Shown: positions 37,519-44,291 of the stretch, in pieces
Numbering within the stretch: the stretch's first letter is position 1
Layout of the letters: each line of letters opens with the position of its first letter
Translations under genes and position numbers: made by a program
Assembly (NCBI GenBank): GCA_016124845.1
Contig: WGMW01000038.1
Location: 1-64,000, forward strand
DNA length: 64,000 bases
Origin: Flavobacteriales bacterium
Lineage (GTDB): Bacteria; Bacteroidota; Bacteroidia; UBA10329
Direction of reading: 5' to 3'
The notes under the pieces: generated by a model
What the model saw: only the letters and a program-made list of their open reading frames with translations
What the model was told of the DNA's origin: nothing
Database searches by the model: none

Positions 37519-38205
37519 ATGGCCATGTTGAGACTGGACCTTGCATCAATTGCCCGACAGACGGGGCTGAAAAGCGTGGCGGTGTTTCTGCGCGGAAAGG
37601 GGTTTTCGGAAAAACAGACGCGGACGCTTTCGAAGCCGACAACTGCGCAATTGATACGGGACAGGACGCTACAGCGGCTGTGCGAGGCGTTCGTGTGCAC
37701 TCCGAACGACCTGTTCCGGTGGCATGGCGACCGGGAAAGTCATCTGCTTGGGCTGAATATGGTTTCGAGCGTCCCAGCTGCCTCGTCACTTGGTGAGTTG
37801 AGCCAGGAAAAGGTGGAGTTGCTTTTGGCAGAGGTTGAGAAGTTGAGCATTGAACCCCGAACGGATGAGCCGATGCCCGAAGGAAGACTCTTTTTGAACG
37901 TGAAGCGGATGGTGGAGCAGCGGCAGGCGCGCTCGGAGGTGAAGTTTCTGCAAATGAAGGGCTTTACGGAATCGGAAGCACGGAAGCTGCTTGACCCTGA
38001 GAGGAAGGCGGTGAAGATGAGCATGCTTACACGGCTGTGCAACGCCTTTATGTGCCTGCCGAACGACCTTTACGACTGGGAGGGCTCGGAGGAGCATCCT
38101 CTGAACGCGCTACGGAAGGAGCCTGCCGTTGACCTGAATGCGCTGTTGCTACGACTGCCGCCTGATGAGGTGCGGAGGATATTGGAGAAGTTGGGGAGGA
38201 TTTGA
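37519..38205 (+). CDS. Protein with two duplicated HTH-like domains
   Basis: A 228-residue protein made of two homologous copies of about 67 residues (4-70 and 124-190), joined by an acidic linker. Copy 1 ends LQRLCEAFVCTPNDLFRWHG and copy 2 LTRLCNAFMCLPNDLYDWEG; both carry VxFLxxKGFxExxxRxL near the start. This C-x-PNDL ending resembles the last helix of Cro/C1-type (HTH_26-like) DNA-binding domains, so DNA binding is likely. The C terminus adds a helix (RLPPDEVRRILEKLGRI). The start is the ATG 18 bases after the 21-bp array; a second ATG lies two codons on. Role unknown. Confidence 0.65.
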   Translation: MAMLRLDLASIARQTGLKSVAVFLRGKGFSEKQTRTLSKPTTAQLIRDRTLQRLCEAFVCTPNDLFRWHGDRESHLLGLNMVSSVPAASSLGELSQEKVELLLAEVEKLSIEPRTDEPMPEGRLFLNVKRMVEQRQARSEVKFLQMKGFTESEARKLLDPERKAVKMSMLTRLCNAFMCLPNDLYDWEGSEEHPLNALRKEPAVDLNALLLRLPPDEVRRILEKLGRI

Positions 38206-38308
38206 ACGTAACTGAAGTCTGAAAAATCAAGCATGAGTTATTGTTCATGATGATCTGCAATAAATGATGCCGACCATCCGTTATCCAAACCATTTTGCAT
38301 ACGATACC

Positions 38309-38521
38309 ATGAAAAATTCTTATTTCCTACCGCTGATCATCACCTCATTCATCTTAGGTCTTACGATCATCTCCTGTAAGAAAGATTGCTTTGACCAAGC
38401 ATTGTATGATGCATCCAAAAACCAAGGATGCACCACGGATTGCCCAGGGGTGACGGGCTGCGATGGCAAAACCTATTGCAACGAGTGCGAAGCAAACCGC
38501 CACGGCATCCGCGTGGAATAA
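38309..38521 (+). CDS. Small Kazal-type lipoprotein
   Basis: A 70-residue protein with a lipoprotein signal peptide (hydrophobic core ending LTIISC). A short cysteine-rich domain, CTTDCPGVTGCDGKTYCNEC, resembles the core of Kazal serine protease inhibitors (CxxxxPVCGxDGxTYxNxC), although shortened and ending EANRHGIRVE. Surface-anchored inhibitor or structural module are both possible. The ATG at 38309 begins the signal peptide. A subtilase gene lies 14 kb away, with no evidence of a link. Confidence 0.7.
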   Translation: MKNSYFLPLIITSFILGLTIISCKKDCFDQALYDASKNQGCTTDCPGVTGCDGKTYCNECEANRHGIRVE

Positions 38522-38542: not shown

Positions 38543-38569
38543 AAAAAAGCCCCGTTGACCAAACGGGGC
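38543..38569 (-). terminator. Terminator of the candidate RNA
   Basis: On the minus strand GCCCCGTT pairs with AACGGGGC (8 bp, 5-base loop) and is followed by T6. Confidence 0.8.
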
Positions 38570-38686
38570 CACGTCTTCACAGGTAACCTATGTGACACCC
38601 TATTGCCACACCTGTGTTCCAAATGACAACTTCTCCGAATCACCATGGATGAATCCGGAGTTAACAGTTCCTCACCAGAATGACGT
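38543..38686 (-). ncRNA. Candidate small structured RNA of ~144 nt
   Basis: A promoter (38692-38722) and an intrinsic terminator (38543-38569) frame about 144 bases without a reading frame. The predicted RNA has a 9-bp hairpin CTCCGGATT/GATTCGGAG (with G-U pairs) around CATCCATGGT. It also has a hairpin CACAGGT/ACCTGTG with an inner TGTGG/TCACA stem, and ACGTC/GACGT pairing near the ends. It is not a tRNA, tmRNA or SRP RNA as far as I can see. A 6S-like or phylum-specific RNA is possible but not established. Confidence 0.5.
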
Positions 38687-38691
38687 TGAAC

Positions 38692-38722
38692 CGAAGGTAC
38701 GAAACCTTCAACATCATGTCAA
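38692..38722 (-). promoter_or_regulatory. Promoter of the candidate RNA
   Basis: Minus-strand TTG, 20 bases, then TACCTTCG (one mismatch to TAnnTTTG). It lies just upstream of the predicted RNA start. Confidence 0.5.
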
Positions 38723-38837: not shown

Positions 38838-38854
38838 AATATCGACAAACGACA
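38838..38854 (+). promoter_or_regulatory. 17-bp element upstream of phosphatase gene 1
   Basis: AATATCGACAAACGACA, 71 bases before the ATG, followed by TTAAG (38864) and GTAAC (38876). The same 17 bases and both later words occur before the second phosphatase gene at 41067. Confidence 0.5.
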
Positions 38855-38908
38855 CAACTATTCTTAAGATTCAAGGTAACAAGTTGTTAACCGATAGAGG
38901 CTTGCTCC

Positions 38909-40903
38909 ATGAAAGGATCTTTACGAATACTGTTGCTTGAAGACTCGCACTCGGATGCTCAACTGATCCGTGATGTTCTTAAGAACAGTGACCTGGCCTT
39001 CAACCTGAACCACGTTGATTGTAAGAAGGAATATGAGCTGGCCCTTCAGAATCCTTGGGATGTCATACTCTGCGATTATTCCCTGCCAGGGTACGATGCA
39101 TTGGGTGCATTCCGGAAGCTGGTCACACGTGGCCTTGGTGGGAAAATCCCATTCATAGTGATCACGGGGACGCTGACCGACAATACAGCGAATGAAATGC
39201 TGGACATTGGCATCGATGATTATCTACTGAAGGACCGACTCGCAAGGCTTCCTCATGCGATCCACAAACAGTTGCAGCAACGGGAAACGGATGCACAACT
39301 GGATGCTCAGGAAAAGGTATCCAATATGACGACCGAACGGTACCAAACGATCACTGATCATTCAGATGACCTTATCACCGTTGTTGACGCCCTCGGAACC
39401 TATGTCTTCGTATCAAAGACCAGTGAACGGATGTTGGGATTCCGTCCCGATGAACTGCTTGGTCGGTCAGGATATGAACTGATCCCTGAATCCGATCTGG
39501 AGTATGTGAGCAGAAAGCATCAGGCCATGCTCCGCTCAAAGGAAACCATTGTGGTCGGTCACGGCATACTCCGAAAAGATGGGTCGGTCATTGATGTCGA
39601 ATCCTCAGCAAGTCCGGTCATAGACAAAGAGACCGGAGTATTGAAGGAGATCATTGTCATTGCCCGAGACGTATCTGAACGAAACAAGGAACGCAAAAGG
39701 CTTGATAGGATCAGACGTCTCTTTGCGGAGGCTCAGCACATGGCCAATTTCGGTAACTGGAACTATGATGTCTCTTCCTACGCGCTTTACTGGTCCGATT
39801 CGCTCCGTGATATCTGCGGTGTACCGAGGGACGTGAAAGCGGACTTTGACCTCTTCAAGTCCATCATTCACCCTGATGATAGAGAACACATGCTTCAAGG
39901 TATGGAGAAGGTGCAGAATGAGGGGACTGATATGGAGTCACTGTTCAAAATAATTCGTCCTGATGGAACGGAGCGGATACTGAGGTCGAAAACCCATGCA
40001 GAAACTGACATGGACGGAAAGCCCTCACGTCTGTATGGGGTGATACAGGACGTGACCGATGTCAAGCGGGCCCAATATGAACTGAAGAGAACATTAGGCG
40101 AGCTAGAACAACGTGTTGATGAACGGACCGCTTCACTCGCACAGAAAAATCAGGAAATCACGGACAGCATCCGATATGCTGAGCGTCTGGTCAGATCTGT
40201 TCAACCTGACGAACGGCTCTTTGAACGTCACTTTCAGGAACATTTCATTTTTAACCGCCCGCTGAACATCATTGGAGGAGACTTCTACTGGTTGCATAAA
40301 TCAAGAAAACAGATCATGCTCGCATGCGCTGACTGTACAGGCCATGGAGTACCTGGTGCATTCATGAGTCTTTTAGGTTCTGACCTACTCAACCATATTG
40401 TGGTGAATCAGGAATGGCGACACCCATCACTTGTGTTGGAACTTTTGGACACAGAACTTGAGAACCGATTCAAGAACGGTACCGAATTGGTAAATGACGG
40501 CATGGATGTGGCATTCTGCACTATTGACACGAAGGAGAACAGGCTTCAATTCTCAGGGGCGATGAACCCAGTTGTCATTGTAGGCAAACAAGGGGTACGG
40601 GTTCTAAAAGGAAGCAGGTATTCTCTGGGTGCATATATCAGTTCGGCCAGTAAGAGTTTTGAGACGCATGAGGTCGAATTTGAGAAAGGAGATATGCTAT
40701 ACCTCTTTTCCGATGGGTTTCAGGATCAGTTCGGTGGTCCGAATGACAAACGGTTCATGGTGAAACAGCTAAAAGAACTGTTTGAGCAGATACATCAATT
40801 GCCTACAGAAGAGCAATTGGATGCTGTGACCCGCTCCTTTGAATCATGGAAAGGAGATAATGAACAGATCGATGATGTGCTTGTAATGGGAGTTCGCCTG
40901 TAA
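38909..40903 (+). CDS. Receiver-PAS-PAS-PP2C (SpoIIE-type) phosphatase 1
   Basis: A 664-residue cytoplasmic signalling protein. The receiver domain spans residues 1-125 with phosphorylatable Asp56 (CDYSLPG) and the late Lys in DDYLLKD. PAS domains lie at about 150-265 and 275-390, followed by a coiled coil (EQRVDERTASLAQKNQEI) and a SpoIIE-type PP2C domain. Its metal motifs are GGDFYW, ADCTGHGVPGAF and SDGFQDQFGG, ending QIDDVLVMG. Such proteins dephosphorylate Ser/Thr partner proteins in switches such as RsbU and SiaA. It shares its upstream element with the next gene. Confidence 0.88.
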   Translation: MKGSLRILLLEDSHSDAQLIRDVLKNSDLAFNLNHVDCKKEYELALQNPWDVILCDYSLPGYDALGAFRKLVTRGLGGKIPFIVITGTLTDNTANEMLDIGIDDYLLKDRLARLPHAIHKQLQQRETDAQLDAQEKVSNMTTERYQTITDHSDDLITVVDALGTYVFVSKTSERMLGFRPDELLGRSGYELIPESDLEYVSRKHQAMLRSKETIVVGHGILRKDGSVIDVESSASPVIDKETGVLKEIIVIARDVSERNKERKRLDRIRRLFAEAQHMANFGNWNYDVSSYALYWSDSLRDICGVPRDVKADFDLFKSIIHPDDREHMLQGMEKVQNEGTDMESLFKIIRPDGTERILRSKTHAETDMDGKPSRLYGVIQDVTDVKRAQYELKRTLGELEQRVDERTASLAQKNQEITDSIRYAERLVRSVQPDERLFERHFQEHFIFNRPLNIIGGDFYWLHKSRKQIMLACADCTGHGVPGAFMSLLGSDLLNHIVVNQEWRHPSLVLELLDTELENRFKNGTELVNDGMDVAFCTIDTKENRLQFSGAMNPVVIVGKQGVRVLKGSRYSLGAYISSASKSFETHEVEFEKGDMLYLFSDGFQDQFGGPNDKRFMVKQLKELFEQIHQLPTEEQLDAVTRSFESWKGDNEQIDDVLVMGVRL

Positions 40904-41141: not shown

Positions 41142-44100
41142 ATGGATAAAGATGTCCTGAAAATTCTACTACTGGAAGATAACGAGTATGATGCAAAGCT
41201 TGTAGCTGACCACTTGGAACAATCTGAATTTCGCTTCAAACTAAAACACGTTACGGATCGAAAGCACTTTTTAGAAGCCTTGCACAAGTGGAAGCCAGAT
41301 CTGATACTCAGTGATTTCAATCTTCCTGACTATACAGGTGTAGAAGCGTTTAAAGAGATGAAGAAAAAGGGTCATCGAATTCCTTTTATTCTTTTAACGG
41401 GCACGCTGGATGATAAACTAACCGCTGAACTGACCAAAAATCACATTGATGATTACCTGTTAAAAGATAGACTATCGCGCTTGCCTTTGGCGATACAAAA
41501 GGTTTTTGACCACCATGTTTCGGACACTCAAATAGATGTGTTCAGGGAATCGGCATTGATGTCTGAGCAGAAGTACAAGCTGCTTACGGAATCCTCTACG
41601 GATGTCATCTCCATACACAGCATTGAGGGAGTCTATTCCTACTGTTCTCCCGCCTGTAAAGAAACCCTTGGATTTACGGTTGATGAGCTTCTGGGTCAGG
41701 ACATCTTTGAATATGTTCACCCAGATGATGTTGCAGAACTGACCCAGAAACTCAATACACTTATCAAGAAGGGAATCAAAGCTTCAACAACCTTCCGTTT
41801 TCAAAAAAAAGACGGGACCTATAGTTGGATGGAAGGGGTTGCCCTACCCATTCGTGACAATGGTTCGGAAACGACATCGAATATGATGGTGGTGCTTCGC
41901 GACATCAGCGAACGAAAACATGCTGAACTGGAGGCACAGGAGCAGCGCGAATTGATCGAACGTATTTATGCAGCTTCGTTAGATGCGGTGGTTATAATAG
42001 ATAAGGAGGGGATCATTACCAAGTGGGATGCAAAAGCAGAAGCACTTTTCGGCTGGGATGAAGCAGAGGTCAAGGACAGACGATTGTCCGAAACAATCAT
42101 CCCAGAGCGCCATCGTACTGCCCATGAGCAAGGTATGAAACACTACCTCAAAACAGGAGAAGGCCCCGTTCTGAACAGAACCATTGAGGTCAATGCCTTG
42201 AAGAAAGATGGGACAGAGATCGATGTTTCCTTAAGCATCACCCCCTCGCAGTTGAACGGGGAGCCGCATTTTATCGGATTTATCCGTGATGTATCTGAAC
42301 GTAAACGGGCTGAAAAACAACGCGAGTTCGACAAAAGCAACCTCAGATCCCTCATTAACAATACCAAAGACCGCATGTGGAGTGTGGATAGAAATTACAG
42401 GTTGATCACATGCAATCAGCGTTTTGAGGAGGTCATGAAAGCATATTCTGGGCAGGAGTTGAAAGCGGGTGACAATGTTTTGTCGGGGATTATGTCGGCA
42501 GAGCAATCCGAATATTTCAAGACACTCTATGAACGAGCCTTCTCAGGGGAAACATTTACTGAGGTGATTCATGCAGATGCTCCCGTTCAGCGCTGGTCAG
42601 AGATCTCCTGTTATCCAATATGGCAGAACGACAAGGTAATAGGCACGGCCTGCTACTCGCGAGACATTACTGAAAAATTACGGGCGGAAAAAGAACTCAA
42701 GCATAGTGAAAGACGATTGAAAGAGGCGCAAGCCATTGCCCACGTGGGCAGTTGGGAACTGAGCTTTGCCACGGGTGTTGCCATTTGGTCCGAGGAGGCC
42801 TGTAGGATATACGGCCTGAATACTGAAGAGACCGAACAGTCTTATGAAAGTTGGTTGTCCTTTATCCATCCTGATGACCTGAAATTTGTACAGGAAAGTA
42901 TTGACCGATCGAATGAAACCTTTAGCGATACGGTTATGGATCACCGAATTGTTCGAAAGGACGGTACGGTCAGGCACATTCATGCCACCACGAAGTTTGA
43001 CTTTGACGAGCAGGGGAAGCCAGTCGGTCTGTATGGAACTACCCATGATATTACCGAACAAAAACTTGCCGAAAAGAAAACCAGGGATAGTGAGTATGGT
43101 CTTAAGATGGCTCAGGCCATTGCGCATGTGGGCAGCTGGGAGGTGGATATGAAAAATGGTCTTGTCCAGAAATGGTCAGATGAGCTCTTCAACATCTATG
43201 GCCTTGACAACGAATCGGAAAGGACATTGGATCTGTTTTTGTCGGTCATTCACCCAGAAGATGCTGTATTTGTAACGCAAAGCGTTTCGGAGACTTTTGA
43301 GACGTTGAAGGATACCGTTTTCGATTATCGGGTCATTCGGAAATCGGACGGTGCCCGGCGCCATTGCCATTCAGAAACCCGATTTGACTTTGACAGTCAG
43401 GGAAAGCCGATACGCCTATACGGAATTGTGCAGGATGTAACGGAGCTTAAACTGGCCCAACAGCAATTGGAAAAGACCTTGGCCGAGTTGGAAGACCGTG
43501 TGGAGGAACGTACTCAAGAACTGGCAGAAAAAAACAAGGACATCCTCGACAGCATTGAATATTCAAAACACATACAGCAGGCCATTTTGCCGAAGATCGA
43601 AGACTGTCAGAAGATATTCCCCGACTCGTTTGTACTGTGGATGCCGCGGGATGTTGTAAGTGGCGATTTTCTGTGGTGTCATTTTGATGAGCAATATGAT
43701 TTTGTGGCTGTAGCAGATTGTACAGGCCATGGCGTTCCAGGGGCGTTGATGAGCATCATTGCCAACCAACTGCTGGAAAGGGTGGTTGCCAATTATAGGT
43801 TTACCCGACCCAGAGACATCCTATTTCATTTGAATGAGGCCGTGATCGCGGCCCTGCAACAGGAAACAGGCATTGTAAAGGACGGAATGGACATTGCGTT
43901 GTGCCGCGTAGATAGGATCAACAACAGGTTGGTGTTTGCAGGCGCGAACCTATCACTATTTCATTATGACGGCAGCCAGTTGAATGAACTGAAGGGCAGC
44001 CGACACGGCATTGGTGGAATAGTTACCGGTAGTGGACTGAAGCGTTTTGCTGAAACGGAGATCCCGTTCAAAAAAGGTGACCGCATCTATCTCAGTTCCG

Positions 44101-44291
44101 ATGGTTACTATTCTCAGTTCGGTGGTGAGAACGGAAAAAAGATGATGAAAAAGAACATGGCCAAGCATTTTTCCAATGCTGCCGAACACCCTATATCTGA
44201 ACAACAACAGCTATTAAAGGAGTATTACCAAACTTGGCAAAAGGATGAGATACAAATTGATGATGTTCTTGTACTGGGAATTCAGCTTTGA
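41142..44291 (+). CDS. Receiver-(PAS)5-PP2C phosphatase 2
   Basis: A 1049-residue cytoplasmic protein. The receiver has Asp58 (SDFNLPDYTG). Five PAS domains lie at about 140-255, 265-390, 395-510, 520-640 and 645-765. The fourth and fifth are a recent-looking duplicate pair (both contain AQAIAHVGSWE). A coiled coil (EDRVEERTQELAEKNKDILDS) leads to the PP2C domain with SGDFLW, ADCTGHGVPGALM and IQIDDVLVLG. In the DGxxDQFGG motif Asp is replaced by Ser (SDGYYSQFGG). That may weaken but need not abolish activity. It follows phosphatase 1 in the same orientation. Confidence 0.88.
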   Translation: MDKDVLKILLLEDNEYDAKLVADHLEQSEFRFKLKHVTDRKHFLEALHKWKPDLILSDFNLPDYTGVEAFKEMKKKGHRIPFILLTGTLDDKLTAELTKNHIDDYLLKDRLSRLPLAIQKVFDHHVSDTQIDVFRESALMSEQKYKLLTESSTDVISIHSIEGVYSYCSPACKETLGFTVDELLGQDIFEYVHPDDVAELTQKLNTLIKKGIKASTTFRFQKKDGTYSWMEGVALPIRDNGSETTSNMMVVLRDISERKHAELEAQEQRELIERIYAASLDAVVIIDKEGIITKWDAKAEALFGWDEAEVKDRRLSETIIPERHRTAHEQGMKHYLKTGEGPVLNRTIEVNALKKDGTEIDVSLSITPSQLNGEPHFIGFIRDVSERKRAEKQREFDKSNLRSLINNTKDRMWSVDRNYRLITCNQRFEEVMKAYSGQELKAGDNVLSGIMSAEQSEYFKTLYERAFSGETFTEVIHADAPVQRWSEISCYPIWQNDKVIGTACYSRDITEKLRAEKELKHSERRLKEAQAIAHVGSWELSFATGVAIWSEEACRIYGLNTEETEQSYESWLSFIHPDDLKFVQESIDRSNETFSDTVMDHRIVRKDGTVRHIHATTKFDFDEQGKPVGLYGTTHDITEQKLAEKKTRDSEYGLKMAQAIAHVGSWEVDMKNGLVQKWSDELFNIYGLDNESERTLDLFLSVIHPEDAVFVTQSVSETFETLKDTVFDYRVIRKSDGARRHCHSETRFDFDSQGKPIRLYGIVQDVTELKLAQQQLEKTLAELEDRVEERTQELAEKNKDILDSIEYSKHIQQAILPKIEDCQKIFPDSFVLWMPRDVVSGDFLWCHFDEQYDFVAVADCTGHGVPGALMSIIANQLLERVVANYRFTRPRDILFHLNEAVIAALQQETGIVKDGMDIALCRVDRINNRLVFAGANLSLFHYDGSQLNELKGSRHGIGGIVTGSGLKRFAETEIPFKKGDRIYLSSDGYYSQFGGENGKKMMKKNMAKHFSNAAEHPISEQQQLLKEYYQTWQKDEIQIDDVLVLGIQL

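Follow-up and report, generated by a model that had tools for sequence, protein, structure and literature searches.

A candidate minus-strand gene for a species-specific small RNA in a gene-free gap between a Kazal-like and a SpoIIE-type phosphatase gene in a Bacteroidota genome

The minus strand of a 387-nt gap between two plus-strand genes, a Kazal-like gene and a phosphatase gene, appears with moderate confidence to carry an intergenic small RNA gene that stands alone and would be specific to its lineage, and more precisely to its species. The gap is located in a 64,000-nt stretch of DNA (G000:C38:1-64000), referred to here as the window, from a Bacteroidota genome of 4.36 Mb in 65 contigs (G000), whose family, among the genomes compared, consists of one genus with nine genomes (G000-G008). 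The sequence contains a promoter-like site and a unidirectional terminator that has no other gene to serve, with no ORF in between. The candidate small RNA is about 146 nt long (38543..38688, minus strand) and is predicted to form two hairpins enclosed by a 5-bp stem (ACGUC/GACGU), with the terminator following. A sigma-A type promoter at approximately 38722-38692 would drive minus-strand transcription, and the RNA would start near 38688 and stop at the intrinsic terminator at 38543. From these elements we infer that the candidate RNA is transcribed.

One flank of the gap is formed by a small Kazal-like lipoprotein gene on the plus strand (38264..38521, with a start that may be at 38309), which has no Pfam match and the stop codon of which is about 27 nt away from the terminator hairpin. 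The other flank is formed by a response regulator-PAS-PAS-SpoIIE phosphatase gene, also on the plus strand (38909..40903). The flanking genes both sit on the plus strand, opposite to the candidate, which is therefore not a leader, in agreement with an earlier sequence-only reading of this locus. The same reading had noted that no ORF lies under the candidate, and indeed no ORF of at least 20 aa is contained within the transcript. The sole minus-strand ORF that begins inside the candidate (57 aa) reads through the terminator into the Kazal-like gene in antisense, and it is not credible. The Kazal-like lipoprotein, to which Pfam is blind, has a paralogue in its own genome (L038, G000:C27:15929-16111) and homologues in four congeners. 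Upstream of its gene, window positions 37519-38205 encode a protein with two Cro/C1-type HTH_26 stretches (PF13443), that is, a duplicated HTH. The response regulator/PAS/SpoIIE phosphatases are an expanded family, with 36 matches in this genome (for example at window positions 38909-40903 and 41142-44291, and at G000:C58:42457-44436), and the phosphatase next to the candidate RNA has its closest relative (53%) within its own genome and none close in the congeners.

The intrinsic terminator (GGCCCCGTTTGGTCAACGGGGC-T6; 38543..38570, minus strand) consists of GGCCCCGTT-TGGTC-AACGGGGCT (38570-38548) followed by TTTTT(T). Hence, the terminator of 8 bp plus T6 claimed before is present, as a hairpin of 8-9 bp plus T6, and it is unidirectional, with the T tract absent from the plus-strand side. 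In a mechanical terminator scan it ranked best of five in 5 kb. The strong terminators were also surveyed across 852 kb of this genome, window included, in which genes and tRNAs were called; the genes were called by a simple codon-usage script, which missed the Kazal-like gene, so that this gene was added by hand and the survey counts are approximate. The data showed 48 strong terminators, 44 of them intergenic, and for 40 of these 44 a gene or tRNA on the same strand ended no more than 150 nt upstream. The four exceptions were one that belongs to an apparent uncalled CDS, one in a tandem array at tRNA-Lys, one that is bidirectional and serves the neighboring plus-strand gene, and the candidate's own. 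After inspection, the terminator of the candidate was thus the only unidirectional one among the 44 intergenic terminators in 852 kb without a same-strand gene or tRNA upstream. Such an orphan terminator points to a minus-strand transcript that is missing from the annotation. Two of the exceptions, which are far from a same-strand gene, were also considered as terminators of sister small RNAs, and they are explained by the apparent missed CDS and by the tRNA repeat array. This array (L095:18644-19059; G000:C27:58644-59059) comprises four copies of a 104-bp unit (97% matches), and every copy closes with a terminator hairpin (AGCCTTTCC..GGAGAGGCTTTTT). It continues straight on from the 3′ end of a tRNA-Lys gene, and it is a tandem array of the tRNA 3′ end plus terminator.

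The minus-strand promoter proposed in the sequence-only reading, TTG-N20-TACCTTCG (38692..38722), is present in the sequence as described, with TTG at 38722-38720 and, after the N20 spacer, TACCTTCG at 38699-38692; the transcription start would be expected near 38688. The Bacteroidota promoter consensus seems valid in this genome, because all four perfect (6/6) TTG-N19-TAnnTTTG sites in the window are located in gaps, where three precede genes and one is 13 nt before a tRNA. Perfect promoter sites were also enriched 7.7-fold in 354 upstream regions of this genome. The TACCTTCG box matches five of the six defined bases of TAnnTTTG, having one mismatch, and for 5/6 sites as a class the window showed no enrichment (19 versus about 16 expected by shuffling). 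The variant present here, TAnnTTCG, is among the few one-mismatch variants that are enriched, as it was found 35 times upstream of genes versus 14.5 expected (2.4-fold) when TTG was not required, and its enrichment was weak when TTG was required (2 versus 1.2 expected). The 20-nt spacing falls inside the range of the perfect sites, which peaks at 19. The chance that the 340 nt preceding the terminator would hold a comparable site, defined as a perfect, TTCG or TTTA variant, each with TTG, was estimated from the upstream-region rates as about 3%. On this sequence evidence, the candidate minus-strand promoter with one mismatch is plausible. An alternative promoter further upstream on the minus strand, TTG-N19-TAGTTGTG (38853..38882), is also a 5/6 match. 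Its T-to-G change is not enriched before genes, and it is less likely than the promoter at 38722-38692. An imperfect inverted repeat, ATGATGTTGAA-N16-TTCAACGTCAT (38680-38717), spans the candidate −7 box, and it is only in minus-strand RNA that its arms pair fully, one of the pairs being G-U. The reading of this repeat as an operator was rejected, as 12 of 100 shuffles were as good and the repeat did not recur in the genome.

The sequence-only reading had described about 144 bases with at least two hairpins and end pairing, and both of these features are present in the candidate of about 146 nt, in its MFE structure as well as in its centroid structure. The candidate is predicted to form a three-way junction carrying two hairpins. 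Inner hairpin 1, which is interrupted and has the apical part CUCCGGAUUCAUCCAUGGUGAUUCGGAG, spans 38618..38680 with limits taken from the MFE structure, while inner hairpin 2 (ACACAGGUGUGGCAAUAGGGUGUCACAUAGGUUACCUGUG) is predicted at 38578..38616, both on the minus strand. The fold including the terminator (38688-38543) had a predicted energy of −53.5 kcal/mol, with a z-score of −2.9 to −3.4, and the body without the terminator had a z-score of −1.9 (9 of 200 shuffles were as good) to −2.2. Since 5-10% of random 117-nt windows taken from this sequence reach the z-score of the body, the argument that the fold is more than chance rests mainly on the terminator, and the body, taken by itself, has a marginal predicted fold. 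When the strands were compared, the plus strand of the body had a z-score of +0.7, which is worse than chance, versus −2.2 for the minus strand, and the minus-strand structure contains seven G-U pairs, which are exclusive to the minus-strand RNA. This strand asymmetry of the predicted fold, consistent with the G-U pairs, mildly supports the minus strand as the RNA. Of the proposed structured RNA with promoter and terminator, the independent unit is supported, well by the orphan terminator and moderately by the promoter, while the structured body finds weak support.

The search for relatives of the candidate included Rfam, a check proposed along with the sequence-only reading, and at both gathering and permissive thresholds it returned only chance matches. 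No homologue was found by blastn in the eight congeneric genomes and other relatives, by blastn in 395 class genomes, or by a covariance model made from this sequence in the genus and 295 class members. No related sequence was found in the phages and plasmids searched, and the candidate RNA is single copy in its own genome. The earlier suggestion of a phylum-specific RNA is contradicted by the absence of a homologue in eight congeners and about 300-400 class members, and the absent homologues give no evidence of selection on the candidate RNA. Several matches were rejected, including a blastn match in a congener (G003, L002), which lies inside a coding gene and is due to chance, and two class-wide blastn matches (L074 and L075), which are limited to the terminator hairpin and represent the usual kind of gene terminator. 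An exact 18-mer shared with two viral contigs showed no further similarity and would be expected by chance at that volume. The neighborhood of the candidate is not conserved either. No ortholog of the phosphatase above about 44% identity was found in the genus outside its own genome, and a search of the genome contigs with the phosphatase returned distant relatives only. The Kazal homologues of the congeners are in other gene contexts, and the stretch downstream of the H+-pyrophosphatase differs in the congeners, so that synteny followed via the phosphatase, the Kazal-like gene and the H+-pyrophosphatase revealed no neighborhood conserved in the genus.

The hairpin could also be a decayed bidirectional terminator of the Kazal-like gene, in which an A6 sequence before the plus-strand stem gives the accidental T6 of the minus strand, while no small RNA is made; we consider this rather unlikely. 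Such a reading agrees with the normal position of the hairpin, which begins about 27 nt past the Kazal stop codon, and with the two near-identical hairpins (AAAAAGCCCCGTT-loop-AACGGGGCTTTTT) of other Bacteroidia (L074, L075), which lie 20-30 nt past the ends of coding genes and are bidirectional terminators of the ordinary type. On the other hand, the plus strand has no T tract (CCACGTCTTC), so that the hairpin as it stands would terminate on the minus strand only, the Kazal homologues of the relatives and the paralogue show no visible intrinsic terminator at this place, and the candidate promoter speaks against this reading as well. Another explanation, which seems quite unlikely, is that the terminator merely blocks spurious antisense transcription coming from the phosphatase gene or from the gap, and that the RNA is a functionless by-product. 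It would fit the complete lack of conservation, the weak promoter match and the marginal fold of the body, but the 852 kb surveyed held no second orphan terminator of this type, so the genome does not generally use termination in this way.

The 6S-like identity offered in the sequence-only reading was not upheld, and it is highly improbable that the candidate is a diverged 6S RNA acting by sequestration of RNA polymerase. The candidate is like 6S RNA (RF00013) and 6S-Flavo (RF01685) in its size class and in the pairing of its ends, which are roughly in range, and neither model detected a 6S RNA in any of the nine genomes of the genus (G000-G008), which leaves a 6S gene unaccounted for. However, the candidate matched neither model, its predicted fold is a three-way junction rather than a rod with a central bubble, and its sequence and structure model was absent from all eight congeners, although 6S is a conserved housekeeping RNA. 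The RF00013 positive controls gave matches in E. coli, B. subtilis and others. RF01685 also finds nothing in 97 of 99 class genomes, so little can be read into its lack of a match in this genus, and the 6S RNA of the genus seems to be outside the coverage of Rfam.

As for the action of the candidate small RNA, antisense base pairing may be supposed, at a lower confidence than transcription, from the class of intergenic small RNAs to which it would belong. Pairing could take place in trans with mRNAs, or alternatively in cis with the 387-nt plus-strand spacer between the Kazal-like and phosphatase genes, if both genes are co-transcribed. A plus-strand TAnnTTTG promoter at the right spacing before the phosphatase gene was not found, and in view of this lack of a consensus promoter, transcription may read through from the Kazal-like gene, which keeps the cis option; with such read-through the RNA would be antisense to the spacer. 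In the comparison with 645 translation starts, the best duplex energies were inside the shuffled range, and the genes of the window also gave no outlier. A more specific proposal, that this is a recently born, species-specific de novo gene of a cis-acting small RNA, which co-opted a terminator and, as an antisense RNA in the spacer, sets the expression of the SpoIIE-type phosphatase, is very unlikely.

If transcribed, the candidate would be one more lineage-specific small RNA, from a Bacteroidota group that is largely uncultured and in which the Rfam models found no 6S RNA, and to our knowledge none of the regulatory RNAs of this group have been mapped so far. The rarity of an orphan unidirectional intrinsic terminator in this genome (1 of 44 after inspection) makes it a cheap flag for unannotated transcripts, and this terminator-based method is perhaps more useful than the single case described here.

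As a species-specific intergenic small RNA, the candidate would be of an ordinary kind, as such genes are common in Bacteroidota. In Flavobacterium psychrophilum, 85 independent new transcripts with a median of 176 bp were reported, and among its Rfp1-89 RNAs 40% of the non-antisense ones are strongly folded (PMC9723704). Like the Rfp1-89 RNAs, the candidate would be a short independent non-coding transcript (PMC9723704), while it differs in that they were shown by RNA-seq and many of them are conserved in the species or genus. In Bacteroides thetaiotaomicron, there are 49 high-confidence intergenic small RNAs with a start site and a terminator, 27 of which are strain-specific, and both elements are present in eight of nine Northern-validated intergenic small RNAs (PMC7366714). 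One small RNA of this species, GibS, is a 145-nt intergenic trans-acting RNA (PMC7366714). GibS has a long unstructured 5′ seed that is conserved in its genus, while the candidate is predicted to be mostly paired and is unconserved in its genus. A sequence relation between the two is not expected, and their likeness is one of anatomy, which includes the length (145 versus about 146 nt), an own sigma-A promoter, predicted here for the candidate, an intrinsic terminator, and the location in a gene-free gap.
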